Assembly (NCBI RefSeq): GCF_022410465.1
Contig: NZ_JAJSON010000024.1
Location: 62,001-126,000, forward strand
Direction of reading: 5' to 3'
Length of the DNA: 64,000 nt
DNA from: Christiangramia crocea
GTDB taxonomy: Bacteria > Bacteroidota > Bacteroidia > Flavobacteriales > Flavobacteriaceae
In this document: in pieces, positions 11,223 through 28,989 of the stretch
Numbering within the stretch: the first letter of the stretch is position 1
Layout of the letters: each line of letters opens with the position of its first letter
Translations under genes and position numbers: made by a program
The notes under the pieces: generated by a model
Databases searched by the model: none
The model's input: only the letters and a program-made list of their open reading frames with translations
Told to the model about the DNA's origin: nothing

Positions 11223-11226
11223 ATAC

Positions 11227-12391: not shown

Positions 12392-12419
12392 GCTGGTATA
12401 AACAATGAACTTATAGGCG

Positions 12420-13663: not shown

Positions 13664-14728
13664 TTAAACGCCTATACTCTGTACAACTTCTTTCTTCGCT
13701 TCTTTTTTGCTACCATCAAATCCTTCCACGCCACCAACAGTGGTGTATTTCAGTACAAATTTCTTATCTGGATAGATTCTCTGATAAGCACTCTGACACA
13801 TGATCGCTGCTTCATGGAATCCGGACAGGATAAGTTTGAGTTTTCCTTTATAGGTATTTACATCTCCTATTGCATATACACCGGGAATATTGGTTTGATA
13901 ATCATATGAATTGTCCACCTTGATGGCATTCTTTTCTATTTCAAGCCCCCAGCTTCCAATAGGCCCAAGTTTTGGTGAAAGTCCGAATAACGGAATGAAT
14001 TCATCAACTTCTCTGAATTCTTCTCCGCGAGCTTCATCTTTATGACGAATAACAACCTTTTCAAGTCTTTCTTCTCCTCTTAAACCAACTACCTCAGCAT
14101 TAGTGATCATTTCAATCTTACCAAGTTTTGCCAGTTCCGATACCTGCTCCACAGAATCCAGAGCACCTCTAAACTCCCTTCTCCTATGCACAAGAGCAAC
14201 TTCAGCAGCCACATCAGCCAGGTAGATCGCCCAGTCCAGAGCAGAATCCCCGCCACCGGCGATTACAACTCTCTTATCACGATATACTTCCGGATCTTTT
14301 ATAAAATAAGAGACTCCCTTATCTTCAAAATCGCCAATATTGGTGATCGGGGGTTTTCTAGGCTCAAAAGATCCCAGACCGCCGGCTATGGCTACTACAG
14401 GTGCATGATGTTGTGTTCCCTTATTTGTGGTTACGATAAACGTGCCATCGTCCAGTTTCTCCAGAGTCTCTGCACGTTCACCCAGTGTAAAACCAGGAGA
14501 AAAGGGCTTTATCTGCTCCATCAGGTTGTTAACAAGATCTCCCGCCAGAATTTCCGGAAATGCCGGAATATCATAAATTGGCTTTTTTGGATATATTTCT
14601 GAACACTGTCCTCCTGGTTGCGGTAAAGCATCTATAAGGTGTGTCTTTAACTTTAAAAGTCCTGCTTCAAACACGGTAAACAATCCCGTTGGTCCTGCTC
14701 CTATTATCAGGATGTCTGTTTTAATCAT
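13664..14728 (-). CDS. ferredoxin/flavodoxin-NADP+ reductase, TrxR-like type
   Basis: A 354-residue FAD/NAD(P) two-domain protein: FAD motif IIGAGPTGLFTVFEAG (N-terminus), NADPH motif VIAGGGDSALDWAIY (~165), and a C-terminal FAD-site motif (GVYAIGDVN). It lacks the CxxC of thioredoxin reductase, which places it with the YumC/type-2 FNR group. It overlaps the precorrin-2 dehydrogenase gene by 8 bp and closes the sulfite reductase operon, so it probably supplies electrons (through ferredoxin or flavodoxin) to the reductase. That partnership is inferred. Confidence 0.87.
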   Translation of the reverse strand: MIKTDILIIGAGPTGLFTVFEAGLLKLKTHLIDALPQPGGQCSEIYPKKPIYDIPAFPEILAGDLVNNLMEQIKPFSPGFTLGERAETLEKLDDGTFIVTTNKGTQHHAPVVAIAGGLGSFEPRKPPITNIGDFEDKGVSYFIKDPEVYRDKRVVIAGGGDSALDWAIYLADVAAEVALVHRRREFRGALDSVEQVSELAKLGKIEMITNAEVVGLRGEERLEKVVIRHKDEARGEEFREVDEFIPLFGLSPKLGPIGSWGLEIEKNAIKVDNSYDYQTNIPGVYAIGDVNTYKGKLKLILSGFHEAAIMCQSAYQRIYPDKKFVLKYTTVGGVEGFDGSKKEAKKEVVQSIGV

Positions 14729-15314
14729 CTTTTTCTTTTTTTTCGATTAAGGATTCTGTTAAACTATTCAACTGATTTACTTTGGCTTCAAAGTCGCCTT
14801 TTATTGTTTTTCGGTATTCATTCAGGTTCTCTACCATTTCATTTACATTCTCGGGAATTACCTCCTCAAAGAACTGCCGTAACCTCTTGGCAGTAGTGGG
14901 TGATTTTCCATTGGTGGAGATCGCGATCTTCACATGACCTTTATTTACGATACCGCCCATATAGAAATCGCATAGATCCGGCGTATCTGCAATATTGGCC
15001 AGCAGATAACGTTTCTTTGCATGCCGATAAACTCTTTTATTTAGTTTAGCATCATTCGTTGCGGCAATCACCACATGCCTTTTCTTTAAAAATTTTCGCT
15101 TATACCGGCTTTTGGTCAGCTTCACTCCATGCTTAAGTGCTAATTCTTCAGTTTCTGGTAAAAACCATTTTGCGACAACCTCAACATTTGCATTCGGGCT
15201 GGATTTCAGCAAAAAATGCAATTTCTCATGGCCTACATTCCCTCCGCCAACTACCAGAATATTGAGCTTACTGACCTTTAAAAAAACCGGGTATAATTCA
15301 TTTCTCTCTTCCAT
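14721..15314 (-). CDS. precorrin-2 dehydrogenase (siroheme synthase N-terminal type)
   Basis: A 197-residue protein matching the first domain of CysG: N-terminal NAD-binding fold (LNILVVGGGNVGHEK, ~13-27), VIAATND, and the siroheme synthase central segment (STNGKSPTTAKRLRQFFEEVIP). It oxidises precorrin-2 to sirohydrochlorin and may also insert iron, as yeast Met8p does. With cobA immediately upstream it provides the siroheme needed by the sulfite reductase. Confidence 0.9.
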   Translation of the reverse strand: MEERNELYPVFLKVSKLNILVVGGGNVGHEKLHFLLKSSPNANVEVVAKWFLPETEELALKHGVKLTKSRYKRKFLKKRHVVIAATNDAKLNKRVYRHAKKRYLLANIADTPDLCDFYMGGIVNKGHVKIAISTNGKSPTTAKRLRQFFEEVIPENVNEMVENLNEYRKTIKGDFEAKVNQLNSLTESLIEKKEKDD

Positions 15315-15324
15315 AGCAATTTTT

Positions 15325-15392
15325 CTTTACTTGTCACGCTGAACTTGCTTCAGCTTCTCACAGATCCTGAATTAAATTCAGGATGACAATTC
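15325..15392. repeat. dispersed repeat with inverted repeat between cobA and precorrin-2 dehydrogenase
   Basis: The 83-bp gap between two genes of one operon contains TGTCACGCTGAACTTG...TTCAGC followed by a dyad ATCCTGAAT-TAA-ATTCAGGAT. Segments like this are, from general familiarity, common intergenic repeats in Flavobacteriia. It probably forms an RNA hairpin within the operon transcript. Confidence 0.55.
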
Positions 15393-15397
15393 TGTAA

Positions 15398-16189
15398 TTA
15401 AGTCACTTGAGATTTCAAAAATTCTGATCTCTCTGGAACCGAATTTATATTATGATATACTTTCTGCAAAGCATTCGCTTCCTTCACTACCTCTCCTATA
15501 ACAATTATAGCCGGTGCAGTGAGCTTTTTATCATTCACCACTTCCACAATATTTCTTATTGTTCCGAAGCCCGATTTTTCATTCTCAGTGGTTCCATTTT
15601 GGATGATCCCAACCGGGGTGTCTTCTTTTCCAAACCGACTAAAAACCTCGGCGATCCCAGCAATTTTACCCATTCCCATTAAAATGACCACAGTTGCCGT
15701 TGACTGAGCCGCCAGGTGCACATCATCGGAAAGTTTTCTTTGCGATGTTGTTCCCGTGATTACCCAGAAACTTTCTGAAGTTCCTCTTTGTGTTAGCGGA
15801 ATTCCCACATTCGCCGGAACCGCCACAGAAGAAGTAATGCCTGAAACCACTTCGGTTTCCAAACCTTTGCTTTTAGCATAACTAATCTCCTCTGATCCTC
15901 TTCCAAAAACGAATGGATCTCCTCCCTTAAGTCTTACCACATGTCCCCGTTCCAGGGCATATTTTACTATAAGCTCATTGATCTCATCCTGTGAGTACCG
16001 GTGCTTATCCTTTCTTTTTCCCACAAAAACATGTTCAGCCTGTGGTGCATATTCCAGTAACTCCCTGTTTATTAACGCATCATACAATACGACTTTTGCA
16101 CTCTTAAGAGCATTCACTGCTTTTATGGTTATCAATTCAGGATCTCCCGGCCCTGCTCCTACTACGCTTAATTTTGGTAAATTATACAT
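15398..16189 (-). CDS. cobA: uroporphyrinogen-III C-methyltransferase
   Basis: Methylates uroporphyrinogen III twice with SAM to precorrin-2, the first step to siroheme. About 263 residues with SUMT motifs LSVVGAGPGDPELITIKAV, YDALI, VRLKGGDPFVFGRGSEE and GIPLTQRG. I start it at 16189 (MYNLPKLSVVG) and not at the upstream in-frame ATG (16216), because the overlap with the sulfite reductase stop then falls to 8 bp and the N-terminus matches the family. It consumes SAM in a SAM-regulated sulfur block. Confidence 0.94.
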   Translation of the reverse strand: MYNLPKLSVVGAGPGDPELITIKAVNALKSAKVVLYDALINRELLEYAPQAEHVFVGKRKDKHRYSQDEINELIVKYALERGHVVRLKGGDPFVFGRGSEEISYAKSKGLETEVVSGITSSVAVPANVGIPLTQRGTSESFWVITGTTSQRKLSDDVHLAAQSTATVVILMGMGKIAGIAEVFSRFGKEDTPVGIIQNGTTENEKSGFGTIRNIVEVVNDKKLTAPAIIVIGEVVKEANALQKVYHNINSVPERSEFLKSQVT

Positions 16190-18275
16190 TTTGTACCTCC
16201 CTCGTTCTATAGGCATCTACTCTCTTCAGGAATAAATGCGCATCCTCTAAATATTTCTTTGCAAAAGCCTCTGTAGGCTCATTTTCATTCAATTGATATG
16301 CAAACTCCTTAAATGAAGTTGACAGCTCAAGTTTTCCAGGCTCAACGAATAATTCATCAAACTGTGAAATTATACCAGCCTGTGTATTGGTTTTCACGTC
16401 TTCAGCAAGCAACAATGCTTTGGCCGAATTCACAATGGATGTGTAGGAATGGTAGATACTATCTGCCCAGGCTTTTCTTTCCAGTGCACTTTTAGCATTA
16501 TCTATCTTCTCTTCGCTTTCAAAAAGCAAAGTTGAAATAAGATCAATTACTACACCTGCACATTCCCCAACTCCTACGGCCTTTATGTATGGCTTTTCAT
16601 GTCCCCAGTCCACAAAGTCACTTTCGGTGAGATTGGAAGTATCTGCAAGGTCTTTCAGAAGATCATAGAAATAAGTCTTTTCCTGACGGTCATAGTACTC
16701 CGCATATTTCTCTTCATTTCCTGAATTCGCTTCAAAGTCATCCAGCAGGATCCTTAAAGCTGCCGGGCCTCTTTTACTCGGAATTTTTACAACCTTATCT
16801 GCGAAACGACCTCTTCCGTCACCCAGAGTTCCTCCTCCTAGTAAAACCTGAAGTGCGGGTGCCACCGTCTTTCCAACTTTAATTGACATTCCCTGGAACC
16901 CAATCTCGGCCATGTTGTGCTGGCCGCAGGCATTCATACATCCGCTTATTTTTATAGTGATATCCTTCCCATTCACAAACTGTGGATATTCTTCTTTTAA
17001 AACATCTTCCAGTACGCTGGCTATTCCCGTACTGGAGGCAATCCCCAGATTACAGGTATCTGTACCCGGGCAGGCAGTGATATCAACGGTCTTGTTATAA
17101 CCAGTATCAGCGTAGCCCAGTTTCTTTAACTCGGTGTAAAAGAATGGAAGAAATTCCTCTCTTACATGACGAATCAGGATATCCTGTCTTAAACTCAGCC
17201 TGATCTCATTCCCGGCATATTTCTTAACAAGGTCTGCCAGTTTTCTTGCTCCACCTGTATAAAAATCACCTAGCGGAACACGAATACCTATTGCGAACAA
17301 ACCGTCCTGCTTCTGAGGAATTACATTAGTGCTTTTCCAAAGCTCAAAATCCTTCTGATCTTCGATCTCAACTGCAGGCACCTCAACATCCTGTAATGGA
17401 GGCTCCACCTCGAATTTTTCTATTTGGAACTCAGGCTGTCTTTTAGACAAGGCTGTCTGCTGTTCTTCAACAAGATCCATAAAGGCTTCCTTTCCAATAT
17501 CCTTGATCAGGAATTTCATTCTTGCCTTTAGTCTTTTTGCCCTTTCTCCATGACGATCGAATACCCTGAGAACTCCCTCGATAAGAGGTATGATCTCTTC
17601 TGCCGGAAGAAAATCATATAGTTCATCGGCATGTCTTGGCTGTGAACCAAGTCCGCCGCCAAGCAATACTTTAAAGCCTCTTTTTCCGTCCCTGATCTTT
17701 GCTATAAATCCAAGATCATGTATATAGCTCAATGCTGTATCTTCTTCAGAAGAGGAAAATGATATCTTGAATTTTCTTCCCATCTCCTGGCAAATCGGAT
17801 TCCTGAGGAAAAAACTGAAAGCTGCATGTGCATAAGGCGAAACATCAAAAGGTTCCTTAGGATCTATCCCGGCCGTTTCAGAAGCAGTAATATTTCTCAC
17901 AGTATTTCCGCAAGCCTCCCGAAGGGTAACATCATCCTTTTCCAGCTGTGCCCATAGTTCCGGGGTACGATCCAGACTTACGTGGTGAATCTGTATATCC
18001 TGCCTGGTGGTTATATGTAGTCTCCCCGTGGAATATTCATCAGAAACATCGGCAATTCTGTGTAACTGTTCAGAAGTTACTTTTCCAAATGGCAGTTTTA
18101 TACGAACCATTTGTACGCCAGCCTGTCTCTGCCCGTAAACCCCACGTGCAAGACGAAGGCTACGGAATTTCTCTTCATCAGCTTTTCCTTCACGGAACAG
18201 CCTGATCTTTTTCTCCAAATCCAGAATGTCCTGTTCAACAACTGGGTTTTCAATTTCGGTTCTAAAACTTTGCAT
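16182..18275 (-). CDS. siroheme-[4Fe-4S] sulfite reductase with C-terminal helical extension
   Basis: Six-electron reduction of sulfite to sulfide. Two ferredoxin-like/catalytic repeats of the nitrite/sulfite reductase fold cover residues ~30-560. The cluster/siroheme cysteines are CPGTDTC (402, 408) and CMNAC (446, 450). Residues ~570-697 form an extra mostly helical domain (AKSALERKAWADSIYHSYTS) that is absent from standard Sir and recalls HEPN-type helical domains. It lacks a fused reductase, in keeping with an external FNR. It is preceded by a Met/Cys leader peptide and a 16-bp terminator, so its expression can be set apart from that of cysHDN. Confidence 0.92.
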   Translation of the reverse strand: MQSFRTEIENPVVEQDILDLEKKIRLFREGKADEEKFRSLRLARGVYGQRQAGVQMVRIKLPFGKVTSEQLHRIADVSDEYSTGRLHITTRQDIQIHHVSLDRTPELWAQLEKDDVTLREACGNTVRNITASETAGIDPKEPFDVSPYAHAAFSFFLRNPICQEMGRKFKISFSSSEEDTALSYIHDLGFIAKIRDGKRGFKVLLGGGLGSQPRHADELYDFLPAEEIIPLIEGVLRVFDRHGERAKRLKARMKFLIKDIGKEAFMDLVEEQQTALSKRQPEFQIEKFEVEPPLQDVEVPAVEIEDQKDFELWKSTNVIPQKQDGLFAIGIRVPLGDFYTGGARKLADLVKKYAGNEIRLSLRQDILIRHVREEFLPFFYTELKKLGYADTGYNKTVDITACPGTDTCNLGIASSTGIASVLEDVLKEEYPQFVNGKDITIKISGCMNACGQHNMAEIGFQGMSIKVGKTVAPALQVLLGGGTLGDGRGRFADKVVKIPSKRGPAALRILLDDFEANSGNEEKYAEYYDRQEKTYFYDLLKDLADTSNLTESDFVDWGHEKPYIKAVGVGECAGVVIDLISTLLFESEEKIDNAKSALERKAWADSIYHSYTSIVNSAKALLLAEDVKTNTQAGIISQFDELFVEPGKLELSTSFKEFAYQLNENEPTEAFAKKYLEDAHLFLKRVDAYRTREVQNV

Positions 18276-18382
18276 GGTTACTGATATTTTAATTTTTTAT
18301 TCAGTGCTTTTTTTAAAAGCGATCCCTTGTGGGAATAATTCGATATTTCAAATTTCTGCGCGTGGCTCTAAATTTTGAAATG

Positions 18383-18421
18383 AAAAAAGTCCTTTTAATC
18401 TGCACTTAAAAGGACTTTTTT
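18383..18421 (-). terminator. attenuator terminator between cysN and sulfite reductase
   Basis: A perfect 16-bp inverted repeat: AAAAAAGTCCTTTTAA, 7-nt loop, TTAAAAGGACTTTTTT, with T-tracts on both strands. It lies just after the Met/Cys leader ORF. CTTTTAAGTG (18403-18412), spanning its 5' arm and loop, can pair with CACTTAGAAG (18444-18453) at the end of the leader ORF: 10 bp with one G-U. That pairing would prevent the terminator from forming. Confidence 0.85.
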
Positions 18422-18446
18422 ATAATTGGTTTTATAAATAAGACTT

Positions 18447-18494
18447 CTAAGTGTGAGGCGAATAGCGCATACACATAACTTTCATGATATTCAT
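18447..18494 (-). CDS. Met/Cys leader peptide before sulfite reductase (15 aa)
   Basis: A 15-codon ORF (ATG 18494, stop TAG 18447-18449) beginning 32 nt after the cysN stop. It reads MNIMKVMCMRYSPHT: four Met and one Cys, with the core VMCM. An in-frame GTG five codons upstream would add one more Cys. It overlaps the antiterminator segment and precedes a strong terminator. The layout matches the metY leaders. Stalling at the Met/Cys codons under sulfur amino acid starvation would allow read-through into sulfite reductase. Confidence 0.75.
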   Translation of the reverse strand: MNIMKVMCMRYSPHT

Positions 18495-18526
18495 AATGAG
18501 ACAGTTCACTTCTTTTCTCTTTTTGT

Positions 18527-19771
18527 TTATCTTATAAATCCAACTCCGGCAGTGGTGTTTGTTTGTGTGTCTACCAGAATGAATCTTCCGTTTGCCTTGT
18601 TCTTTTCAAAATTGTCGGCAAAAATCGGCTTGCTTAGTTTGATGCTTACCTTACCAATTTCGTTCAATCTTAAAGAATCGGTCTGGGTTACTCCCCCAAA
18701 ATTAGTTTCCACATGACCCTCGATCCTGTCGATTTTAGCCAGTATTCCATTGGTATTATGTTGTAAAACATATTTATTCCCGGGAAGCAACGCCTTATTG
18801 TCCATCCAGCAAACCGTTGCATCAAGTAATTTTGTTTGCTGCGGGACCTCACCCGACTTCACCAGCATATCTCCACGGGCCACATTGATATCATCTGCCA
18901 GACTAATGGTAACCGAGCTTCCGGCAGGTGCTTCTTCGAAACTCTCATCAAAGAAGTGAATATCCTTGATCGTTGAAGTGGTCAGGGAAGGCAGAACAGT
19001 TACCTCATCACCGACTTTCAGACTGCTTCCACTTATCTTACCGGCATAACCACGGTAATCATGATATTCATCGGTCTTTGGACGGATCACCGTTTGCACT
19101 GCGAATCTTGCCTGACTTTCTTCTTCAAAATCTTCCGCTTTAATTGCTTCAAGATGCTCCAGAACTGTATCGCCTTCATACCATGACATTGCAGAAGACT
19201 TTTCAGCAATATTTTCACCCCAAAGGGCACTTACCGGAATAAAGGTGATGTTCTGATCCTTAAACTCACTTCTGCTTCTCAATTCCTGAAAATCCGCAAC
19301 AATCTCGTTGAAAACGTCTTCCGAATAATTTACGAGATCCATCTTATTTACAGCCACGACCACTTCTTTCACCCTTAAAAGATTATTGATAAAAAAGTGT
19401 CTGTAGGTCTGTTCGATCACACCTTTCCTGGCATCGATAAGAATGATGGATGCCTGGGAAGTCGATGCTCCGGTAACCATATTCCTGGTATATTCCACAT
19501 GGCCAGGAGTATCAGCGATAATATAGCTCTTCTTCCTCGTTGAAAAATATATATGAGCCACATCTATGGTGATTCCCTGCTCCCTTTCAGCTACCAATCC
19601 ATCGGTTGCCAGGGAAAAATCCAGGTAATCAAGCCCCTTCTTACGGCTACTTACTTCTATTGACTCAAGCTTATCTGAAGTTAAAGACCTGGTATCGTAA
19701 AGTAACCTCCCTATAAGGGTACTTTTCCCATCGTCTACACTCCCTGCTGTTGCTATTTTTAAAACTTCCAT
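18527..19771 (-). CDS. cysN: sulfate adenylyltransferase large (GTPase) subunit
   Basis: The EF-Tu-like GTPase subunit that drives ATP sulfurylase with CysD: sulfate + ATP to APS. 414 residues with G1 GSVDDGKS (10-17), G3 DTPGHVEYTRNM and G4 NKMDLV. There is no C-terminal APS kinase (CysC) domain, so it is not a CysNC fusion. It is transcribed after cysD with a 71-bp gap. Confidence 0.95.
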   Translation of the reverse strand: MEVLKIATAGSVDDGKSTLIGRLLYDTRSLTSDKLESIEVSSRKKGLDYLDFSLATDGLVAEREQGITIDVAHIYFSTRKKSYIIADTPGHVEYTRNMVTGASTSQASIILIDARKGVIEQTYRHFFINNLLRVKEVVVAVNKMDLVNYSEDVFNEIVADFQELRSRSEFKDQNITFIPVSALWGENIAEKSSAMSWYEGDTVLEHLEAIKAEDFEEESQARFAVQTVIRPKTDEYHDYRGYAGKISGSSLKVGDEVTVLPSLTTSTIKDIHFFDESFEEAPAGSSVTISLADDINVARGDMLVKSGEVPQQTKLLDATVCWMDNKALLPGNKYVLQHNTNGILAKIDRIEGHVETNFGGVTQTDSLRLNEIGKVSIKLSKPIFADNFEKNKANGRFILVDTQTNTTAGVGFIR

Positions 19772-19842
19772 TTTATTCTTTTCTTGTTAGATCCTGAAAC
19801 AATTCCGATAGTTATTGGAACAGGATGCACTCTTATTATATT

Positions 19843-20742
19843 TTAGAAATATCCCTGTTGTTTTCGGGTTTCCATCGCGGCTTCAGAACGTTTATCATCA
19901 ATTCTTGCCCCTCTCTCAGATATAGCTGATTCTCTTATCTCCTGAACGATCTTGTCTATGCTATCTGCATCTGACTCGACCGCAGCGGTACAGGTCATAT
20001 CTCCTACGGTTCTGAACCTAACTCTCCTTTTCACCGGGATCTCATTCTCTTCCCTGTAAACAAATTCGGAAGCTGACCATAGCAGCCCGTCACGTTCAAA
20101 TATTTCCCTTTCATGAGAATAATAAATAGAAGGAATTTCTATTTTTTCACTGGCTATATAACTCCATACATCCAGTTCGGTCCAGTTGGAAATTGGAAAC
20201 ACCCTTACGTTCTGGCCAATTTCTATCCTTCCATTGAGCATATCAAATACCTCGGGACGCTGATTCTTTTCATCCCATTCCCCAAAATCATTTCTTACTG
20301 AAAAGATCCTCTCCTTGGCGCGGGCTTTTTCCTCATCACGACGGGCTCCTCCAATACAGGCATCGAATTTGAATTCTTCTATGGCATCCAACAACGTATT
20401 GGTTTGCAACGAATTCCTGCTGGAGTATTTCCCGCTTTCTTCGATCGCCTTTCCATTATCAATATCATCCTGCACATGACGAACTATTAGCTGAAGCCCA
20501 AGCTCCTTTACCAGCTTATCCCTGAACTCTATGGTTTCGGGAAAATTATGGCCGGTGTCAATGTGCAGAAGTGGGAAAGGAATCTTAGCCGGAAAGAAGG
20601 CTTTTTGAGCCAGTCTTACCAGGGTGATGGAGTCTTTCCCTCCTGAAAATAACAGCACTGGATTTTCAAACTGTGCTACCACTTCCCGGAAGATATAGAC
20701 TGCTTCGCTTTCTAAGGTATTTTGATTTAATACTGCTCCCAT
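19843..20742 (-). CDS. cysD: sulfate adenylyltransferase small subunit
   Basis: The catalytic ATP pyrophosphatase subunit of ATP sulfurylase (300 residues, usual ~302). It has the PP-loop SGGKDSI (33-39), IDTGHNFPET, GGARRDEEKARAKERIFS and the C-terminal RFRTVGDMTCTAAVES. The ATG at 20742 (MGAVLNQNTLESEAV) is preferred over an in-frame ATG at 20772 that would overlap cysH. Confidence 0.95.
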   Translation of the reverse strand: MGAVLNQNTLESEAVYIFREVVAQFENPVLLFSGGKDSITLVRLAQKAFFPAKIPFPLLHIDTGHNFPETIEFRDKLVKELGLQLIVRHVQDDIDNGKAIEESGKYSSRNSLQTNTLLDAIEEFKFDACIGGARRDEEKARAKERIFSVRNDFGEWDEKNQRPEVFDMLNGRIEIGQNVRVFPISNWTELDVWSYIASEKIEIPSIYYSHEREIFERDGLLWSASEFVYREENEIPVKRRVRFRTVGDMTCTAAVESDADSIDKIVQEIRESAISERGARIDDKRSEAAMETRKQQGYF

Positions 20743-20753
20743 TATATTCTTTT

Positions 20754-21383
20754 TTAAGCGTGTAAACCACACTCTCTGTTTCCTAATACTTTAGTTGGAT
20801 CAAAATATTTAAATTCATTTGGCAATCCTTTTTCTGCCAGGTATACATCCAGTTCTTCATCACTCCAGTGATAGAACGGACTAACTTTTAACAGCCCATC
20901 TCTGCTATAACTAAGGATATCGATACTGTCCCTGAATGAAGTCTGGCCTTTTCTCAAATTGGTAAACCAAAGATCTGGTTGCTGTTGCGCCATGGCTCTC
21001 TGGAAAGGTTCCAGCTTCACCTGACGTGTAAATTCTTCATGCTTCGGGCTGTTCACTTCTGGTATTCCTCCAAAATAGGCATCCCTGTATGCAGCTGTTT
21101 GTTTTGGTATGTAGAGCTTTACATTAAGATGAAGTAAATCTATTACCTCACTGGCATGCCTGTAGGTTTGCGGGGTATTATAACCCGTATCGCACCAGAT
21201 TACCTTAATAGAAGGGTCTTCGCTTACGCAGGCATGAAGTATCGCTGCTTCATAAGGCCTGAAATTAGTGGTCACCACCGGCTTATCGCTGGCAGCTAAG
21301 GCCCATTTTATGATTTCATCAGGCTTTGCTTCCCTGAACTTCTCATTTAAAATCTTTAATTCCTGTTCTGTATACTTTTTCAT
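20754..21383 (-). CDS. cysH: PAPS/APS reductase (CysH family)
   Basis: Reduces activated sulfate to sulfite using thioredoxin. About 209 residues: N-terminal substrate region (TTNFRPYEAAILHACVS), IWCDTGYNTPQTY, and the catalytic C-terminal ECGLH. The CC...CxxC cysteines that bind [4Fe-4S] in bacterial APS reductases are not present (FTNLRKGQTSFRDSI occupies that region), which favours PAPS as substrate. No APS kinase gene is visible in this window. The start at 21383 (MKKYTEQELK) leaves 2 nt after the DUF2061 stop. Confidence 0.92.
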   Translation of the reverse strand: MKKYTEQELKILNEKFREAKPDEIIKWALAASDKPVVTTNFRPYEAAILHACVSEDPSIKVIWCDTGYNTPQTYRHASEVIDLLHLNVKLYIPKQTAAYRDAYFGGIPEVNSPKHEEFTRQVKLEPFQRAMAQQQPDLWFTNLRKGQTSFRDSIDILSYSRDGLLKVSPFYHWSDEELDVYLAEKGLPNEFKYFDPTKVLGNRECGLHA

Positions 21384-21385
21384 AA

Positions 21386-21649
21386 CTAATCCCTCCCAAA
21401 ATTTATCACGTTCCAAACTCTCTCATGAGCAAAATACAAGATCATCTTTGTTACTAATTCCACACCTCCTATGGCTAGTGCCGTTTGGATTTTCCCGGTA
21501 AGAAACCAGGAAATTACTATAGTGTCTATCGTCCCAACGATACGCCAGCTTACTGTTTTGGCTATACTCCTAAGAGGCTTTTCTGAAGCTCTGTCTTTCT
21601 TAAAAGTCGTATCGGCTTTTGACTGGTTTATAAACATTCCTGTTATCAT
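21386..21649 (-). CDS. DUF2061 small membrane protein
   Basis: 87 residues with about two hydrophobic segments in the C-terminal two-thirds (VSWRIVGTIDTIVISWFLTG and a second one ending KMILYFAHERVW). It matches the DUF2061 family. It is the first gene of the cysHDN operon, directly after a strong promoter and 2 nt before cysH, so a role linked to sulfate assimilation is likely but unproven. Start could also be the second Met (21637). Confidence 0.85.
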   Translation of the reverse strand: MITGMFINQSKADTTFKKDRASEKPLRSIAKTVSWRIVGTIDTIVISWFLTGKIQTALAIGGVELVTKMILYFAHERVWNVINFGRD

Positions 21650-21656
21650 TTCTCTA

Positions 21657-21708
21657 TTACCCTATCGGTTTACTAGGTTTTAGACAAAACTATACTTGAA
21701 TTACCTAA
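21657..21708 (-). promoter_or_regulatory. candidate Rrf2 operator over the cys promoter
   Basis: On the plus strand, CCTA-N9-TAGG (21661-21677) forms an inverted repeat just downstream of the -7 element. A further half-site TTACCTAA (21701-21708) lies in the promoter spacer. ACCTA/TAGGT palindromes are typical of CymR-like Rrf2 repressors. The rrf2 gene is directly adjacent. The assignment is inference. Confidence 0.5.
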
Positions 21709-21715
21709 CAACCAA
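21685..21715 (-). promoter_or_regulatory. promoter of the DUF2061-cysHDN operon
   Basis: Minus strand TTGG (21712-21715), a 19-nt spacer, then TAGTTTTG (21685-21692), a perfect Bacteroidota -7 element. It is ~36 nt upstream of the first start codon. Confidence 0.82.
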
Positions 21716-21752
21716 CTATTTCACTAATTAAATTATGACTTTAACATTTGGG

Positions 21753-22169
21753 TTATTGAGAAGTGGCAATATCCCGCAATGTATTTTCGCCAAGTATGTT
21801 CAGTGATGCGTCTCTTACCTGTATCATTAGCTTGTGAACCGCACAGGTATTTTCATCCGGACAATCATCACATTTCTCATAATAATTAAGGCTTACACAG
21901 GGAACCATCGCGATTGGTCCTTCCAATACCCGGATAACAGCGGTCATTTTTATCTCTTCCGGTTCTTTGATGAGATAATAACCTCCTCCTTTACCCTTTT
22001 TGGATCCCAGGAACCCCGATTTTCTTAATTCCAGCAAAATACTTTCCAGGAATTTTTGTGAAATATTCTCACTCTCGGAGATCTCTGAGGTCTGGACCGG
22101 TTTCCTGTCCTTCTTTCTGGCAATGTAAGCCAGTGCCTTAATTCCGTACTTGGTCTTTTTAGAAAGCAT
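21753..22169 (-). CDS. Rrf2 family transcriptional regulator
   Basis: A 138-residue winged-helix regulator of the IscR/CymR group: KYGIKALAYIAR and the recognition region ISQKFLESILLELRKSGFL, GSKKGKGGGYYL. Four Cys lie in the C-terminal half (91, 100, 103, 109) plus His112, close to the IscR-type Fe-S ligand set but with different spacing (C-x8-C-x2-C-x5-C). Lying between metZ and the cys promoter, it is the natural candidate regulator of cysteine synthesis, sensing Fe-S status or sulfur supply. The ligand is inferred. Confidence 0.88.
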   Translation of the reverse strand: MLSKKTKYGIKALAYIARKKDRKPVQTSEISESENISQKFLESILLELRKSGFLGSKKGKGGGYYLIKEPEEIKMTAVIRVLEGPIAMVPCVSLNYYEKCDDCPDENTCAVHKLMIQVRDASLNILGENTLRDIATSQ

Positions 22170-22202
22170 AAGACGAATATAAAAATATTCCTTCTGCTTC
22201 CT

Positions 22203-23366
22203 TTAATTGTTTAATGCGTTTTTTAAATCGTTAATAATATCTTCTATAGATTCCAGCCCCACCGAAACCCTAACCAAACCTTCAGAAATCCCTGCGGCCT
22301 CCAGTTCTTCCTTAGATAATTTGCTGTGAGTGGTAGATGCCGGATGCGTCACTATTGTCCTGGTATCGCCCAGGTTTGCCGATCTGGAACAAAGCTCAAG
22401 TTTATCGATGAACTTTCGCCCGGCTTCAATTCCTCCTTTTATTTCAAATGACACGATATTTCCACCCTGTTTCATTTGCTTTTTCGCGATCTCATATTGC
22501 GGATGCGATTTCAAAAAAGGATATTTTACATTTTCAGCATTATTTTCAGTTTCAAGAAACTCTGCAACTTTCAATGCATTCTCGCAATGCCTGTCCAGTC
22601 TTACCGCCAGGGTTTCCAGGCTTTTTGACAATACCCATGCATTAAATGGCGAAAGTGCAGGCCCGGTATTCCTGCTAAAGAGATAGATCTCTCTTATGAG
22701 TTCTTCCCTTCCCACAGTAACTCCGCCAAGAACCCTCCCCTGGCCATCGATTAATTTGGTTGCCGAATGTATCACCAGGTCCGCTCCAAATTTTATTGGA
22801 TTTTGCAGATATGGAGTTGCAAAACAATTATCTATCACTAATAACAGATCATGCTTCTTGGCGATCCTTCCCAGTTCCTCAAGATCCAGTATATCCACAC
22901 CCGGATTAGTGGGAGTTTCTGCAAAAATGACCTTTGTTTCCGGCTTAATCAGACTTTCAATCTTATCGACTTCATTCACATTAAAATAGCTATGTGAAAT
23001 ATTCCACTTGGGGAAAAATTTGGTGAACAGACTATGGGTAGAACCAAAAACAGCTCTTGCCGAGATTATATGATCGCCACTATCCAACAGTGTTGCCAGG
23101 GTTGAGAAAACCGCCGACATTCCCGTAGCAAACGCATAACCAGTTTCAGCCCCTTCCATCTTCGCGATCTTTTCCACAAATTCAGAAGTATTGGGATTAG
23201 TAAATCTGCTGTAGATATTTCTCTCTTTCTCTTCAGCAAAACTCGCCCTCATATCCTCAGAATCTTCAAAGACATAACTTGAAGTGAGATATAAAGGTGT
23301 TGAATGCTCAAGAAACTGTGTTCTTTCAGTTTGTGTTCTTACTGCTATGGTTTCAAAATTTTCCAT
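22203..23366 (-). CDS. metZ: trans-sulfuration PLP enzyme (cystathionine gamma-synthase / MetZ-like)
   Basis: A 387-residue Cys/Met metabolism PLP enzyme with the PLP lysine in HSATKLIDGQGRVLGG and the substrate motif GDTRTIVTHPASTTHSKL. Members use O-acyl-homoserine with sulfide (MetZ) or cysteine (MetB). Its ATG overlaps the stop of the MetX fusion (TAATG), so it is coupled to O-acetylhomoserine production. Another family member (metY) is the first gene of the same run. Whether this one is a sulfhydrylase or cystathionine synthase cannot be read from sequence. Confidence 0.88.
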   Translation of the reverse strand: MENFETIAVRTQTERTQFLEHSTPLYLTSSYVFEDSEDMRASFAEEKERNIYSRFTNPNTSEFVEKIAKMEGAETGYAFATGMSAVFSTLATLLDSGDHIISARAVFGSTHSLFTKFFPKWNISHSYFNVNEVDKIESLIKPETKVIFAETPTNPGVDILDLEELGRIAKKHDLLLVIDNCFATPYLQNPIKFGADLVIHSATKLIDGQGRVLGGVTVGREELIREIYLFSRNTGPALSPFNAWVLSKSLETLAVRLDRHCENALKVAEFLETENNAENVKYPFLKSHPQYEIAKKQMKQGGNIVSFEIKGGIEAGRKFIDKLELCSRSANLGDTRTIVTHPASTTHSKLSKEELEAAGISEGLVRVSVGLESIEDIINDLKNALNN

Positions 23367-26300
23367 TAAGCTATTTTTTCTGATAATTTTAAAATGTCCC
23401 CAAATACACCTCGCGCGGTAACGGCGGCTCCGGCTCCGGCTCCCTGGATCACGATAGGCCGGTCACCATAAGATTCGGTATAAATTTCAAAAATCGAATC
23501 GGCTCCCTTCACCTGCCCAAGACTGCTATCTGCCGGAACAGAGACCAGCTTGACTTCCAGCTCGCCCTTATCCTGTTGCAAATCCCCGGAGAGGTCCCCT
23601 ATAAATCGCAAAACATGATTGGGTTCTTGTTGATCTTTTATTTTTTGATAGGTTTCATCCAATTTTTCCAGATTGGAAATAAAGGTCTCGGTGTCTCCAC
23701 CTCTTAAATTTTCAGGCACTAAATTCTTAATTTTCACATCCTCAAATTCATTCTGCAAATCAAGTTCCCTTGCCAGAATAAGTAATTTTCTGCCAACATC
23801 ATTTCCATTAAAATCTTCCCGAGGGTCTGGTTCTGTAAAACCTTTTTCGATTGTTTCTTTCACGACGCTGCTAAAAGGCCTGTCTTCCGAAGAAAATGTA
23901 TTGAAAAGATAACTTAATGTTCCGGAAAAGACACCCCTGATTCGAGTAATATTTTCTCCTGAAAGATGCAAGATCCTGATGGTATCTATAAGTGGAAGTC
24001 CCGCCCCTACATTAGTTTCATAAAAATATCGTTTCTGGTTTTTCTCTAAATCCCTTCGCAAATCATTATAGAACTGTATATCTAAAGTATTGGCTATTTT
24101 ATTGGAAGAGATCAAATCATACCCATTTTTAACCAGGTTCGGATAATTCTGAACAAATTCCCCGCTGGCCGTATTATCAATCGCAATAAGATTTTCAAGA
24201 TGATGCAGCCGGGCGTAATCAATAATTTCTGAAACGGAAGATGCTTTTTCTGATGCCTTCAACTGGGCTTTCCAATCTTCGGAAATACCTTCTGAATTCA
24301 ACAGCAATTTTCGGGAATTGGCCACCGCGAAAACATTCAGTCTTATTTTCTTGCGTTCTTCGATCGACTCTGCCGAATCCAAAATCTGCTCGATAAGGGT
24401 TCCACCCACATTCCCATGGCCAAAAATGGCAATATTGATCTTTTTATAAACTTCGAAAATCTCGCCGTGAATCACATTCAGTGCCTTATGTAACTGTGTT
24501 TTTTTCACGACCAGACTCACGTTTTTTCCGGTAACGGTATTATTGAAAAGCAGCGGCACGATCTGATTCCTGATAAGTGCGTTATAAGGTTTGTGAAAAG
24601 TGCTTAGGTCCTGCCCCACAATGGATATTACCGAAACTTCCTCTACGACCGAAATCTTATTGACGTCTTTTGAATAAAAATCACTTTCAAATTCCCTTTC
24701 CAGCGCTTTAACCGCACGATTCGCGTTTTGTGCGTCAACCACGAGCCCAATACCTCTTTCTGAAGAACCTTGTGAAATAATACTAACACTAATTCCGCTG
24801 TCTCCGAGTGCCCTAAAGATTCGGGCATCGACACCTGATTTTCCTAAAAGTCCGCGGCCTTCCAGGTTAAGCAATGAAGTGTGTTCAAGAACCGATAGAG
24901 ACTTGATTCCTTCCTTTGTAGGTTTGGCGGTGATTAAAGTTCCCTGATTGTCATCATTAAACGTATTTAAAATACGCAGCGGAATATTCTTTTCGATTAG
25001 AGGTATAATCGTTTTGGCGTGCAGGATCGTTGTTCCAAAATTAGCCAGTTCGTTAGCTTCACTATAAGAAAGTTCCTCAATACGTTGCGCATTTCTCACC
25101 AGATCCGGGTTCGCCGTATAAATCCCGTCTACATGGGTATAATTCTGAAGTTCTTCAGCATCCAGATAATTGGCGATTAGCGCCGCGGAATAATTGCTTC
25201 CATTTCTACCTAAAGTAGTGGTTTCGCCATTCGATGTTGATCCAATGTAACCAGTGATGATATTTACAGTTTGCCCGTTATGCTTTTCAAAATGTTTCAG
25301 AAAATATTCTTTTGAAAGCGCCTCAAGCGGCTGAGCATTGCCAAATTTATCATCGGTTTTTAAAAGGCTCCGGGAATCGGTAAAATGCGCCTGCCGACCT
25401 CGTTGGCGAAGTACTTCGGTTATGAATTTGGCAGATAAAATTTCTCCCTGAGCCAGTAGTTGATCTTTTACTTTAGGACTATAATCTCCCAGCAATCGCA
25501 CTCCTTCCAGAATATTTTCAATATTTTTAAATTCTTCGGAAAAATCTAAAGCCTCATAACCGCCTGTCTGATATTTCTTGAATTTCTCAAAGGCAACCTT
25601 ATAATCCTGATTTGATGCAGCCAATTCCAGCAGGTCTTCCAGCTGATCGGTTGTTTTTCCTCTCGCGGAAACCACCACACCTATTCGTTCCTGGTTTTCA
25701 ATTTTATTCTCAATAATGTCGAGAACTGCATTGATTCCACGCCCATTAGCCAGGGATTTACCACCAAATTTTACAATTTTCAGCTTACTGCCCTGCTGAA
25801 ATATTCCTGAAATGATATGTTCCACCTGCCTTGCTTCAATAAGAAAAGCATCATGGCCATGCACAGAATGAATTTCACTATAGGTCACTTTATTACTGCT
25901 TTGCGCTAATTGACGATGTGTTTCCCGATTCTCTTCCGCGGTAAAGAATAAATCTGAATCTACCCCAATGATGCAAATATTAGCCTGAATTTGTTCCAGA
26001 ATTTTGTCCAGTTCCGGCCTGCCCCGTGAAACATCAATAGTTTTTAACAACTGATTCATTAATTTATAAGCCCCTATCTGAAAACGTTCCTGGAGTTTAT
26101 TTCCATGATGCAATAACCAGCTTTCCACATTAAATACCTGCAGCTCCTCATTGGTACTACGTTTAAATCGGGATTTAAATGATTCAGGCGTACGATAACA
26201 CAACATCGCATGCATCCTGGCATCATGAACCGGATTTTTTGAATTATTAAGGAACAGTTCCTGTACCTGACAGTTCGCTATCAACCAGTCGGTAGATTTC

Positions 26301-26746
26301 CAGTCGGTAGCTATAGGGATTAAATTCTGAGTGATCGAAGGATTGATCGCAGCCATTTCCCAGGCAATTCCGCCTCCAAGCGAACCACCAATAAGCGCAA
26401 ACAATTGTGTGATCTTTAATTCTTCCAGGCCCAGAAGAAAAATATGCGCGATATCGCGGGCGACAAAATCCTTATAATTTTCAATGATAAAGCCGTCATA
26501 ACCATTTCCGGGAATATTGAAAGCCAGGATGGTGTATCTATTGGTATCGATGCATTTATTCTCACCAACGATTTCCTTCCACCAGCCGTCATCTCCCGCC
26601 ACATTTGAATTTCCGGTAAGGGCGTGATTAATCAGCACTACCGGCGCCGAATGTAAAGGCTGACCAAAGACCTCATACGATAGCTTAATATCCTGAACTG
26701 TTCCGGCAGAATTTTTAAAATCTTTTATGACTAATTCTCCAAGCAT
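23366..26746 (-). CDS. trifunctional MetX-aspartokinase-homoserine dehydrogenase fusion
   Basis: 1126 residues holding three enzymes. Residues 1-~320: an alpha/beta-hydrolase of the homoserine O-acetyltransferase family, with nucleophile Ser122 in GGSLGGG, Asp263 or Asp265 (GVDSD) and a C-terminal His in VHGHDAF (296-298). Residues ~322-765: aspartokinase (KFGGKSLANG, TLGRNGSNYSAA, VDGIYTANP ~539-547) with ACT regulatory domains from ~615. Residues ~768-1126: homoserine dehydrogenase (IFGHGNVGG 774-782, NVGAGLPLIDT ~912). It carries out steps 1, 3 and the first methionine-committed step; aspartate-semialdehyde dehydrogenase is missing. The acetyl-donor preference is inferred from the family. 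Confidence 0.92.
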   Translation of the reverse strand: MLGELVIKDFKNSAGTVQDIKLSYEVFGQPLHSAPVVLINHALTGNSNVAGDDGWWKEIVGENKCIDTNRYTILAFNIPGNGYDGFIIENYKDFVARDIAHIFLLGLEELKITQLFALIGGSLGGGIAWEMAAINPSITQNLIPIATDWKSTDWLIANCQVQELFLNNSKNPVHDARMHAMLCYRTPESFKSRFKRSTNEELQVFNVESWLLHHGNKLQERFQIGAYKLMNQLLKTIDVSRGRPELDKILEQIQANICIIGVDSDLFFTAEENRETHRQLAQSSNKVTYSEIHSVHGHDAFLIEARQVEHIISGIFQQGSKLKIVKFGGKSLANGRGINAVLDIIENKIENQERIGVVVSARGKTTDQLEDLLELAASNQDYKVAFEKFKKYQTGGYEALDFSEEFKNIENILEGVRLLGDYSPKVKDQLLAQGEILSAKFITEVLRQRGRQAHFTDSRSLLKTDDKFGNAQPLEALSKEYFLKHFEKHNGQTVNIITGYIGSTSNGETTTLGRNGSNYSAALIANYLDAEELQNYTHVDGIYTANPDLVRNAQRIEELSYSEANELANFGTTILHAKTIIPLIEKNIPLRILNTFNDDNQGTLITAKPTKEGIKSLSVLEHTSLLNLEGRGLLGKSGVDARIFRALGDSGISVSIISQGSSERGIGLVVDAQNANRAVKALEREFESDFYSKDVNKISVVEEVSVISIVGQDLSTFHKPYNALIRNQIVPLLFNNTVTGKNVSLVVKKTQLHKALNVIHGEIFEVYKKINIAIFGHGNVGGTLIEQILDSAESIEERKKIRLNVFAVANSRKLLLNSEGISEDWKAQLKASEKASSVSEIIDYARLHHLENLIAIDNTASGEFVQNYPNLVKNGYDLISSNKIANTLDIQFYNDLRRDLEKNQKRYFYETNVGAGLPLIDTIRILHLSGENITRIRGVFSGTLSYLFNTFSSEDRPFSSVVKETIEKGFTEPDPREDFNGNDVGRKLLILARELDLQNEFEDVKIKNLVPENLRGGDTETFISNLEKLDETYQKIKDQQEPNHVLRFIGDLSGDLQQDKGELEVKLVSVPADSSLGQVKGADSIFEIYTESYGDRPIVIQGAGAGAAVTARGVFGDILKLSEKIA

Positions 26747-26813: not shown

Positions 26814-28106
26814 TTAAACCAGTGTTCTTTTTTTAATTTTTGAGAAGGCTTCCTTCAGGTCATTTTGAAGGTCTTCTATATCCTCCAGCCCAACAGAAAG
26901 TCTTATAAGGTCCGCAGTAACTCCGGTAGACTCCTGTTCTTCTTCAGTTAACTGCTGATGGGTAGTGCTTGCCGGATGGATTATCAGTGATTTTGTATCT
27001 CCGATATTTGCCAGAAGTGAGAAGATCTCAGTCTCATCAACAACCGTTTTAGCGGCTTCATAGCCACCCTTTACTCCGAAAGTTACTATTCCGCTTTGTC
27101 CTTTACTGAGGTATTCCTTAGCCAGCTCATGATATTTGCTGCTTTCAAGACCCGGATAATTCACCCATTCCACTTCTTCCTGATCTTCCAGCCATTTAGC
27201 AAGCTTAAGAGCATTACTACTATGCTCCTTTATTCTCACCTTCAGGGTTTCCAGGCTTTGAAGTATCTGAAATGCATTGAACGGGCTTAGCGCTGCACCA
27301 TGATCCCTCAAACCTTCAATACGAGCCTTGGCAATAAATGCCGCTTCTTCAAGTACCTCATGATAGATTATGCCGTGATAACCCGGAGAAGGCTCAGTAA
27401 ATTCAGGGAACTTCCCGTTTGCCCAATTGAACTTTCCGGCATCAATGATCACTCCACCCAGTGAAGTCCCGTTTCCACCAATATATTTGGTGAGGGAATG
27501 AATCACGATATCGGCCCCATGCTCTATAGGGTTCAACAAATAAGGGGTAGCCACCGTATTATCAACAATAAAAGGAACATTAAAAGCCTTTGCTTCCTTT
27601 GAAATGCCTTTAAGATCCAAAACATCAAGTTTTGGATTCCCTACAGATTCTGCAAAGAATACCCTTGTATTCTCTTTTGCCGCTTTAGTGAAATTTGAAG
27701 GATCTGACGGGTCTACGAAAGTTGTAGTGATCCCCAGACGTGGAAGCGTATTTTTAAACAGATTATAAGTTCCGCCATAAAGGCTGTTAGAGGAGACTAT
27801 ATGATCTCCGGCCTTTAATAAAGTTAGCAGAGCTGTGTTGGTTGCGGCAGTTCCCGAAGCGGTTACTACCGCAGCAATCCCACCTTCCAGTGCTGCCAGC
27901 CTTTGCTCAAGAACATCGTTAGTCGGGTTATTGATCCTCGTATAAATATACCCGGGCTCGGCAAGGGAAAAAAGATCGGCTGCATGATCTGAATTCTTAA
28001 ATACATAAGATGTAGACTGGTAAATAGGAACTGCCCGCGTGTCACCGTTAGCTTTTACATCGTGTCCTGCATGAAGGGCTGCTGTTGAAAATTTTTGTGT
28101 ACTCAT
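26814..28106 (-). CDS. metY: O-acetylhomoserine sulfhydrylase
   Basis: 430 residues, the size typical of MetY rather than of MetB/MetC (~380-390). PLP lysine in HSLTKYIGGNGTSLGG; other motifs are PIYQSTSYVF, TRINNPTND and GDTKSLIIHPASTTHQQL. It makes homocysteine directly from O-acetylhomoserine and sulfide, joining the sulfate reduction genes to methionine synthesis. It is the first structural gene after two tandem Met/Cys leader peptides with terminators. Confidence 0.92.
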   Translation of the reverse strand: MSTQKFSTAALHAGHDVKANGDTRAVPIYQSTSYVFKNSDHAADLFSLAEPGYIYTRINNPTNDVLEQRLAALEGGIAAVVTASGTAATNTALLTLLKAGDHIVSSNSLYGGTYNLFKNTLPRLGITTTFVDPSDPSNFTKAAKENTRVFFAESVGNPKLDVLDLKGISKEAKAFNVPFIVDNTVATPYLLNPIEHGADIVIHSLTKYIGGNGTSLGGVIIDAGKFNWANGKFPEFTEPSPGYHGIIYHEVLEEAAFIAKARIEGLRDHGAALSPFNAFQILQSLETLKVRIKEHSSNALKLAKWLEDQEEVEWVNYPGLESSKYHELAKEYLSKGQSGIVTFGVKGGYEAAKTVVDETEIFSLLANIGDTKSLIIHPASTTHQQLTEEEQESTGVTADLIRLSVGLEDIEDLQNDLKEAFSKIKKRTLV

Positions 28107-28146: not shown

Positions 28147-28187
28147 TAAAAAAGTCCCCCTGATCAGCTATTACCAAGGGGACTGTT
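28147..28187 (-). terminator. attenuator terminator 2 before metY
   Basis: Minus strand AGTCCCCTTGGT, 8-nt loop, ATCAGGGGGACT, then TTTTTT: a 12-bp stem with two G-U pairs. It sits ~45 nt before metY and 20-30 nt after leader ORF 2. The segment TTGGTAATAGCT (plus-strand 28166-28177 complement) in its 5' arm and loop is a perfect 12-nt complement of AGCTATTACCAA in leader ORF 2, so the two folds exclude each other. Confidence 0.9.
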
Positions 28188-28209
28188 TAATTGAACTATA
28201 TAACTAATA

Positions 28210-28311
28210 TTAAATTCTCCAGTTTTGGTAATAGCTTTCCATGTGACACATACACATGTGCATCATCATGCGACACATCATCATATTTTGAATTTTAGCT
28301 GTTACCATCAT
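28210..28311 (-). CDS. Met/Cys-rich leader peptide 2 before metY (33 aa)
   Basis: A 33-codon ORF (ATG 28311, TAA 28210-28212). Eleven of its residues are Met and three are Cys, with the core NMMMCRMMMHMCMCHM followed by ESYYQNW. The codons right after the Met/Cys run contain AGCTATTACCAA (plus-strand complement at 28225-28236), which pairs perfectly over 12 bp with the 5' side of the next terminator. Ribosomes stalled for charged Met or Cys tRNA would leave that segment free and antiterminate; ribosomes reaching the stop codon would cover it and allow termination. Confidence 0.92.
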   Translation of the reverse strand: MMVTAKIQNMMMCRMMMHMCMCHMESYYQNWRI

Positions 28312-28375: not shown

Positions 28376-28411
28376 CTATAAAAAAACCGCTGCGGTTGGC
28401 AGCGGCTTTTT
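28376..28411 (-). terminator. attenuator terminator 1 before metY
   Basis: Minus strand AAAAGCCGCTGC, loop CAACC, GCAGCGGTTTTTTT: a GC-rich 7-8-bp stem extended by A-T pairs, with a T-tract. It follows leader ORF 1. CGCTGC in its 5' arm can pair with GCAGCG in leader ORF 1, giving a six-GC-pair competitor. Confidence 0.88.
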
Positions 28412-28432: not shown

Positions 28433-28504
28433 TCATGTAATAGGATACGCTGCGGATCTTGTCCCCATCATGCACATCATCATATTACAAATTATTCTGA
28501 CCAT
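28433..28504 (-). CDS. Met/Cys-rich leader peptide 1 before metY (23 aa)
   Basis: A 23-codon ORF (ATG 28504, TGA 28433-28435) with core CNMMMCMM, six Met and two Cys in the first thirteen codons. Downstream codons include GCAGCG (within TCC GCA GCG), matching the 3' arm of the next terminator and so able to pair with its 5' arm. It starts ~20 nt after a strong promoter. It forms the first of two attenuation units in series. Confidence 0.88.
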   Translation of the reverse strand: MVRIICNMMMCMMGTRSAAYPIT

Positions 28505-28525: not shown

Positions 28526-28557
28526 CAAAGATAACAACACACATTTTTAATTTCCAA
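28526..28557 (-). promoter_or_regulatory. promoter of the metY operon and its leaders
   Basis: Minus strand TTGG (28554-28557), a 20-nt spacer, then TATCTTTG (28526-28533), a perfect TAnnTTTG. Both leader ORFs and metY lie downstream on the same strand. Confidence 0.8.
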
Positions 28558-28870: not shown

Positions 28871-28882
28871 TAACCGAATTAT

Positions 28883-28989
28883 TGAAAGGGACAGATTTGA
28901 CTGATTGCAACCCTAAAATGTACCACATGTTTTGTAGTACATATTAAAATGCTAAAGCAGTAGTTTTTCACACTCCTATTAGCCTTTCA
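28883..28989 (+). ncRNA. probable SAM riboswitch (variant SAM-I type) upstream of metK
   Basis: A closing stem TGAAAGG (28883-28889) / CCTTTCA (28983-28989) encloses, in order, a GGGACAGATTTGACTGATT segment, GCAACCCT, a P3-like hairpin (TGTACCACATG...GTAGTACA) and AATGCTAAAGCAG. This order parallels the SAM-I core (GGGACTGG, GCAACC, P3, GGTGCTAA). The element is between the metK promoter and its start codon. Class assignment is by eye and needs a covariance-model check. Confidence 0.58.

Follow-up and report, generated by a model that had tools for sequence, protein, structure and literature searches.

The 64,000-nucleotide stretch of DNA analysed here (the window) carries metY, the gene for O-acetylhomoserine sulfhydrylase, on the minus strand at 26814–28106 (TIGR01326, 646.9 bits against a cut-off of 495.1). 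The gene is 96% identical to metY of Gramella jeungdoensis, and the window is of the Christiangramia (Gramella) type of Flavobacteriaceae. The rest of a likely operon lies behind it at 13664–26746 (minus strand), co-transcription being inferred from gene order and strand. Its first part encodes a fusion of a MetX-like protein with aspartate kinase and homoserine dehydrogenase, a MetZ-like enzyme, an Rrf2 regulator, a CysH-like protein, CysD and CysN. The later genes encode a sulfite/nitrite-reductase-like protein, uroporphyrinogen-III methyltransferase, a CysG N-terminal domain and a thioredoxin-reductase-like enzyme. In the names ending in "-like", several of the matches fell under the family cut-off. 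The fusion is one protein of 1126 amino acids (23366–26746, minus strand), in which the MetX-like part is an acetyltransferase. The Rrf2-family regulator inside the sulfur operon (21753–22169, minus strand) is possibly an additional cysteine sensor; once the superfamily model is set aside, the named family that it matches best is CymR, with 85.4 bits against a cut-off of 195.

Two short ORFs precede metY on the minus strand. The nearer, leader ORF 2 (28210–28311), encodes 33 amino acids, 11 of them Met and 3 Cys, as an earlier sequence-only reading of the locus had stated, and the core of the peptide is MMMCRMMMHMCMCHM. It is followed by an intrinsic terminator with a 12-pair stem (28153–28184, minus strand; U tract to 28147) that ends 46 nt upstream of metY. 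Region 2, the antiterminator strand within the ORF (AGCTATTACCAA, codons 26–29, 28225–28236, minus strand), and region 3, the antiterminator strand over the terminator arm and loop (TTGGTAATAGCT, 28166–28177, minus strand), are perfect complements over 12 nt. A 12-nt complement between ORF 2 and the 5′ arm plus loop of the terminator was obtained in only 2 of 20000 dinucleotide shuffles of both. The earlier claim that late codons of the ORF perfectly complement the 12-bp terminator held with a refinement: just 5 nt of region 3 (TTGGT, 28177–28173) lie in the 5′ arm, and the other 7 are in the loop. The claim of mutually exclusive folds held with a similar limit: antiterminator and terminator are predicted to be incompatible only at the top of the stem, and not along its full length.

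The fold of leader 2 has z = −2.77, and 3 of 200 shuffles were equally stable. Region 1 (GGTAACAGCT, which spans ORF 2 from the third base of codon 2 through codon 5, 28297–28306, minus strand) resembles region 3, is able to pair with region 2, and is paired in the full-length fold. Upstream of the Met run, 22 of 33 loci have a stretch whose pairing with region 2 reaches p ≤ 0.05 relative to shuffles; the pairing is non-significant in the remaining 11, one of which (L012) is a truncated contig. This 1:2 pairing, overlooked in the sequence-only reading, would supply the third, competing helix of a classical attenuator and in that sense favours attenuation, its effect in an untranslated leader being uncertain.

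The leader 1 unit, from ORF to terminator, spans 28504–28386 on the minus strand, upstream of leader 2. It comprises leader ORF 1 (MVRIICNMMMCMMGTRSAAYPIT, 28433–28504), an antiterminator strand inside that ORF (GCAGCG, 28448–28453) with its partner CGCTGC (28404–28399), an inner antiterminator helix (TTACA, 28440–28436, with TGTAA, 28414–28410), and an intrinsic terminator (28386–28406) followed by a U tract. Further upstream are a promoter −7 box of the type TAnnTTTG (TATCTTTG, 28526–28533, minus strand) and a TTGG (28557–28554, minus strand). TAnnTTTG is the Flavobacterium sigma-A consensus (PMC9723704). It was found ahead of leader 1 in all 31 loci examined (2.5 expected from a mononucleotide shuffle) and between the leaders in none of these 31 (1.2 expected). 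The count covers 31 of the 38 rows of the leader-1 alignment (A3); L112, L114, L115, L118, L135, L136 and L156 were not included. Because the box precedes the pair and none lies between, the leaders appear to act in series, and a single promoter is likely to serve both, an inference from sequence alone. The name "leader 2" given earlier is thus apt: leader 1 is real, lies upstream and stands behind the same promoter box.

Both leaders are conserved. Leader 2 is present in all 24 genus-level genomes, that of the window included; it is weak in L021 and cut by the contig end in L012. Leader 1 is present in 23 of the 24, the exception being L012, whose contig extends only 167 nt upstream. Both leaders also occur in nine named relatives (L033 and L042–L049: a further Gramella, Salinimicrobium, Gillisia, Salegentibacter and a Flavobacteriaceae MAG). 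In the aligned core of leader 2 all 32 indels are multiples of three, as is 1 of 58 just past the stop codon. The corresponding counts for leader 1 are 25 of 25, all of 3 nt, and 2 of 55. Indels were counted per row against the window's row, not per event, and within aligned cores only (columns 61–137 of the leader-2 alignment, A1, and 4–66 of A3), with the ORF ends left out. A1 omits 11 loci taken as repeats of the same species or of the window (L001, L032, L034–L041 and L050); A3 omits L012 (contig too short) and L025 and is also without the leader-1 units of L113, L121 and L159. Since core indels keep the frame, both ORFs look like selected reading frames; actual translation is inferred.

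Covariation was scored in the same alignments. In the leader 2 terminator 94.2% of cells were paired and six pairs changed on both sides, and the covariation score was reached by none of 500 shuffles; L006, L020, L021 and L049, whose terminator is shifted by one base in A1, were scored as broken. The leader 2 antiterminator was paired in 90.4% of cells, compared with 13 to 55% when slid, and had three pairs changed on both sides. Its paired percentage was reached by 35 of 500 shuffles and its covariation score by 6. The end pair is broken in 17 of 33 rows and the neighbouring pair in 9. With so few double-changed pairs, this covariation offers modest support. Lack of pairing covariation, which would have refuted attenuation according to the sequence-only reading, was checked for and did not occur. 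For leader 1 (38 rows), all cells of the outer antiterminator helix and 82.3% of those of the inner helix were paired; four pairs in all changed on both sides, as many as in none of 500 shuffles, and in L135 and L156 the GCAGCG strand and its partner are altered together. The leader 1 terminator was paired in 100% of cells (38 rows), and three of its pairs had both sides altered, a number matched by 1 of 500 shuffles. Combining the genus region 2 with region 3 of L042–L048 gave −6.7 kcal/mol, compared with −15.4 for the own pair. The reverse swap gave −14.0 kcal/mol, better than the own pair at −9.5, and the swap is for that reason only half a test.

Leader 2 was also folded with a ribosome at defined positions. 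With arm 4 of the window's transcript still to be made, a ribosome at each of the eight codons tested from 11 to 21 left the 12-pair antiterminator in place; at codon 24 four antiterminator pairs remained, and at codon 26 or later none. Across 33 loci, this partial transcript formed the antiterminator in 32 (all except L043) with the ribosome in the Met/Cys run and in none with the ribosome at the stop codon. Full-length leader 2 without a ribosome folded the terminator in 29 of 33, the other four being L006, L020, L021 and L049, whose arms are shifted in A1. The equilibrium picture is less sharp in other respects. As isolated hairpins, antiterminator (−20.7 kcal/mol) and terminator (−18.8 kcal/mol) are similar, and once arm 4 is included in the window's leader 2 the antiterminator wins at three of eight stall positions (codons 15–17) and the terminator at five. 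Without a ribosome the partial transcript gave the antiterminator, not the 1:2 pairing, and the full-length transcript gave the terminator together with 1:2. All folds are equilibrium folds without kinetics, and the real choice would fall during transcription. Such folds separate the states incompletely, so folding order has to play a part, and what happens without translation is uncertain.

Codon content distinguishes the leaders from their surroundings. Pooled leader 2 ORFs contain 26.5% Met (271 of 1023 codons, start codons included) and 10.4% Cys (106 of 1023; TGT 68, TGC 38), as against 2.25% and 0.66% in the long ORFs of the window. Some leaders are free of Cys, such as leader 2 of L114 with 10 Met and no Cys in 15 codons. 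At least six Met plus Cys in 15 codons occurred on the sense strand of 34 of 120 regions and on the antisense strand of none of the 120; antisense Met-run ORFs in the 80 family regions never exceeded three Met in 15 codons. In the genome the pattern ATGATGN{0,9}ATGATG has 38 matches (4 for the backward control). Thirty were inspected, of which three are the two leaders; the other 27, judged by eye from their translations, belong to long genes or are short frames, and none has the Met/Cys mix. Other spacings would be missed and the surroundings of the matches lay outside the check, so a regulon beyond metY is possible and cannot be excluded by a scan of limited matches and spacings. Sulfate assimilation would make sulfide for both amino acids, which is why we regard the likely operon as feeding both. 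Dual sensing of Met and Cys, proposed in the sequence-only reading, is well supported by codon content; it remains an inference without experiment. The rationale offered for it, that the gene uses sulfide to make homocysteine, is better put as an operon reaching into sulfate assimilation and feeding both amino acids.

Relatives were surveyed for what stands at this site. Among 299 Flavobacteriaceae genomes, 201 had a match, and 80 of about 150 listed metY places were fetched, mostly from the top of the list. The SAM-I riboswitch (RF00162) occupied the same site before metY, on the metY strand, in 65 of the 80; a leader that counts as Met-rich (at least 5 Met per 15 codons) was found in 10, both in none and neither in 5 (Fisher p = 1.8e-9, relatedness ignored). 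Lowering the threshold to 4 Met changed the counts to 64 SAM-I, 11 leader, 1 both (L170) and 4 neither. Most of the relatives examined thus seem to use SAM-I for this task. Two Met/Cys ORFs were present in 8 of the 10 family leader loci and one in 2; in L136, with two, the second has no recognised terminator, and in L135 and L156 the one leader found is of the leader-1 type. In the window itself there is no SAM-I or SAM-II aptamer on the metY side, the sole Rfam gathering matches being at 12290–12393 and 28881–28965. No T-box was matched at the gathering score in the window or in 20 further loci. Chance origin of the leaders was considered and rejected on the strength of the complement shuffles and the antisense controls.

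At class level 40 of 69 listed metY places (295 genomes) were fetched, 39 of them from outside the family. SAM-I was present in 22 of the 40. Of these, 18 also have a short ORF with at least six Met plus Cys in 15 codons, mostly Cys, and just 2 of the 18 ORFs have a terminator-like site behind them. Among the 18 loci without SAM-I, 7 have Met/Cys ORFs and 11 have none. Six of the 7 loci have two such ORFs each, which makes 13 in total, and a terminator-like site lies behind 8 of the 13, compared with 54 of 800 random anchors. Met counts were lower where SAM-I is present (18 loci) than where it is absent (7; Mann–Whitney p = 0.003) and Cys counts were higher (p = 0.026), relatedness not being modelled in either comparison. 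Strict exclusion of SAM-I and Met fails in this set: L223, L224 and L259 have SAM-I with 4 or 5 Met. L259, a Flavobacteriaceae locus with a divergent metY, combines SAM-I with an ORF of 5 Met and 2 Cys. Antiterminator pairing reached p ≤ 0.05 in 12 of 19 distant and family leader units with terminators; the non-significant units were the first of L113, both of L118 and of L222, and the second of L227 and of L237. In Melioribacter (L060, L061 and L087) two Met-rich ORFs, each with a terminator, precede metY. Cys runs occur among Met in L113 (MMCCCMMCMCM), L159 (CCCMMMVMCMMCC) and L237 (MMCCCC).

Overall, two serial ribosome-mediated transcription attenuators very likely act on metY, and probably also on the sulfate-assimilation genes downstream of it, although we have no expression, ribosome-profiling or mutational data. 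The sequence evidence covers the ORFs, their kept frames, the terminators, the alternative pairings, their covariation and the single promoter box before both. A short ORF rich in codons of the end product is present (its translation being inferred), as is an intrinsic terminator ahead of the structural gene in both leaders. An antiterminator that overlaps the terminator and is free only on an upstream stall is present as judged by pairing and by equilibrium folds of partial transcripts, not by kinetics. The idea of Met/Cys attenuation of metY, already put forward in the sequence-only reading, is supported by frame keeping, covariation, the ribosome-position folds and the occurrence of SAM-I at this site in most relatives without the leader.

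In the proposed mechanism, RNA polymerase would start about 17 nt upstream of leader ORF 1. A shortage of Met-tRNA or Cys-tRNA would stall the ribosome in the Met/Cys codons of each leader; the strand near the end of the ORF would then be free to pair with the 5′ arm and loop of the terminator, and transcription would go on. When Met and Cys are both plentiful, the ribosome would reach the stop codon and cover that strand, and the terminator would form. If leader 2 were untranslated, the first codons of its ORF could occupy region 2, which would lead to termination. Both terminators would have to be passed to reach metY, so a sharper response is expected. The stalling of the ribosome, the signals behind it, the behaviour of an untranslated leader and the serial action of the two units are all inferred.

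The most resilient rival holds that methionine alone is sensed and that the Cys codons are neutral passengers. In its favour, Met exceeds Cys by 271 to 106 in pooled leader 2, and the leaders of L114 are Met-rich with no Cys in the scored stretch. Against it, Cys in leader 2 is about 16 times background, the leaders of other lineages hold the Cys runs amid Met noted above (L113, L159 and L237), the class-level ORFs beside SAM-I are mainly Cys, and the likely operon provides sulfide for both amino acids. We consider a Met-only sensor unlikely. The next alternative, that one leader works and the other is a relic (leader 1 alone, or the reverse), could draw on the single leader-1-type leader of L135 and L156 and on the second ORF of L136, which has no recognised terminator. 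However, terminators are retained by both units across the genus and also in distant lineages, and there is very little to recommend this alternative. It is also very improbable that the ribosome is stalled by the nascent Met/Cys-rich peptide acting as the sensor of a ligand such as copper. The core MMMCRMMMHMCMCHM does look like a set of soft-metal ligands. However, the start aside, an alignment of 19 leader-2 peptides has just two invariant Met columns, its Cys and His positions are variable, most identified downstream genes belong to sulfur or homoserine metabolism, and SAM-I stands at the metY site in most relatives. An undescribed metabolite-binding riboswitch with an aptamer that is coding-like by accident would suit a gene that has many SAM-I leaders, but it is very hard to sustain when neither leader matches Rfam at the gathering score, core indels are multiples of three and the residues between the Met/Cys codons are variable.

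Several known systems come close to serial Met/Cys attenuation, the reading we prefer. The trp and his attenuators consist of a short ORF with regulatory codons, competing 1:2, 2:3 and 3:4 pairings and an intrinsic terminator. The metY leaders share with this type the regulatory-codon ORF, the competing 2:3 and 3:4 pairings (with a possible 1:2 pairing in leader 2) and a terminator before the first structural gene. They are unlike it in mixing Met and Cys codons, in having two serial units and in belonging to Bacteroidota; in leader 2, moreover, region 3 lies mostly over the terminator loop. The Cys-run leader peptides of actinobacterial cys operons (PMC1262725) also place Cys codons in a small ORF ahead of sulfur genes, but they have no conserved terminator and their Cys runs come close to the stop codon; it is these that the Cys-rich ORFs found with SAM-I in other Bacteroidota resemble more. 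uORFC-8-2 before cysS in Rhodobacterales (PMC8632094) likewise has Cys codons, an intrinsic terminator and predicted ribosome-mediated attenuation. It differs in having two adjacent conserved Cys codons, one unit and a tRNA synthetase gene, and Met codons are unmentioned in the sections of that paper that bear on it. SAM-I senses SAM and not tRNA charging, whereas the metY leaders have no aptamer. The tandem attenuators of Salmonella mgtCBR (PMC3641672) also place two short leader ORFs before one operon, with proposed steering of alternative stem-loops, but belong to a Mg2+/virulence operon and respond to signals other than Met and Cys. The signals of the mgtCBR leader are ATP and proline. In Flavobacterium psychrophilum (PMC9723704) leader peptide attenuation has likewise been proposed before amino-acid operons; the section on structured 5′ elements names pheA and hisG and no Met/Cys leader, although the supplement may list leaders. 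For the Streptococcus fthC uORF it has been suggested that methionine might act via initiator tRNA (PMC11109978). The open-access literature searched, which leaves out most subscription journals, yielded no leader peptide of the Met or Met/Cys type for metY.

The mechanism is thus that of a textbook attenuator; what is new is a methionine-responsive, mixed Met/Cys, doubled leader, its responsiveness being inferred from the sequence. Bacteria are generally held to regulate methionine through SAM riboswitches, T-boxes or repressor proteins. If true, a methionine leader peptide would fill a gap among the known attenuators, and with the doubled leader nature provides a way to ask whether attenuators in series make a response sharper. 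A bolder reading, towards which we lean only slightly, is that tandem Met/Cys leaders are an old, widespread, two-input alternative to SAM-I in Bacteroidota and relatives such as Melioribacter. Evolution would here exchange a small-molecule sensor for a tRNA-charging sensor at one promoter, with the Met/Cys mix tuned to the presence of SAM-I. The exchange, with more Met where SAM-I is absent and more Cys where it is present, would then be a natural experiment on the replacement of RNA sensors.

Several further observations were made. SAM-I loci of the class-level set often have a short ORF behind or overlapping the riboswitch that ends in a Cys run (e.g., CMCMCCCCC), mostly without an intrinsic terminator (L225, L226, L229, L231, L232, L235, L240, L255, L261 and others). 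Judged by sequence only, this ORF could possibly be a separate cysteine control stacked on the SAM-I switch. A MAG titled Oscillospiraceae (L095) has a Met/Cys-rich ORF and a terminator-like site before a metY relative. In the window, SAM-I lies before metH (12290–12393, minus strand) and SAM-II before metK (28881–28965, plus strand), and with the leaders there are three kinds of sensor for the methionine pathway within 17 kb. The metH behind SAM-I is split into two overlapping ORFs (8544–11294 and 11227–12243, minus strand), an N-terminal part and the rest.
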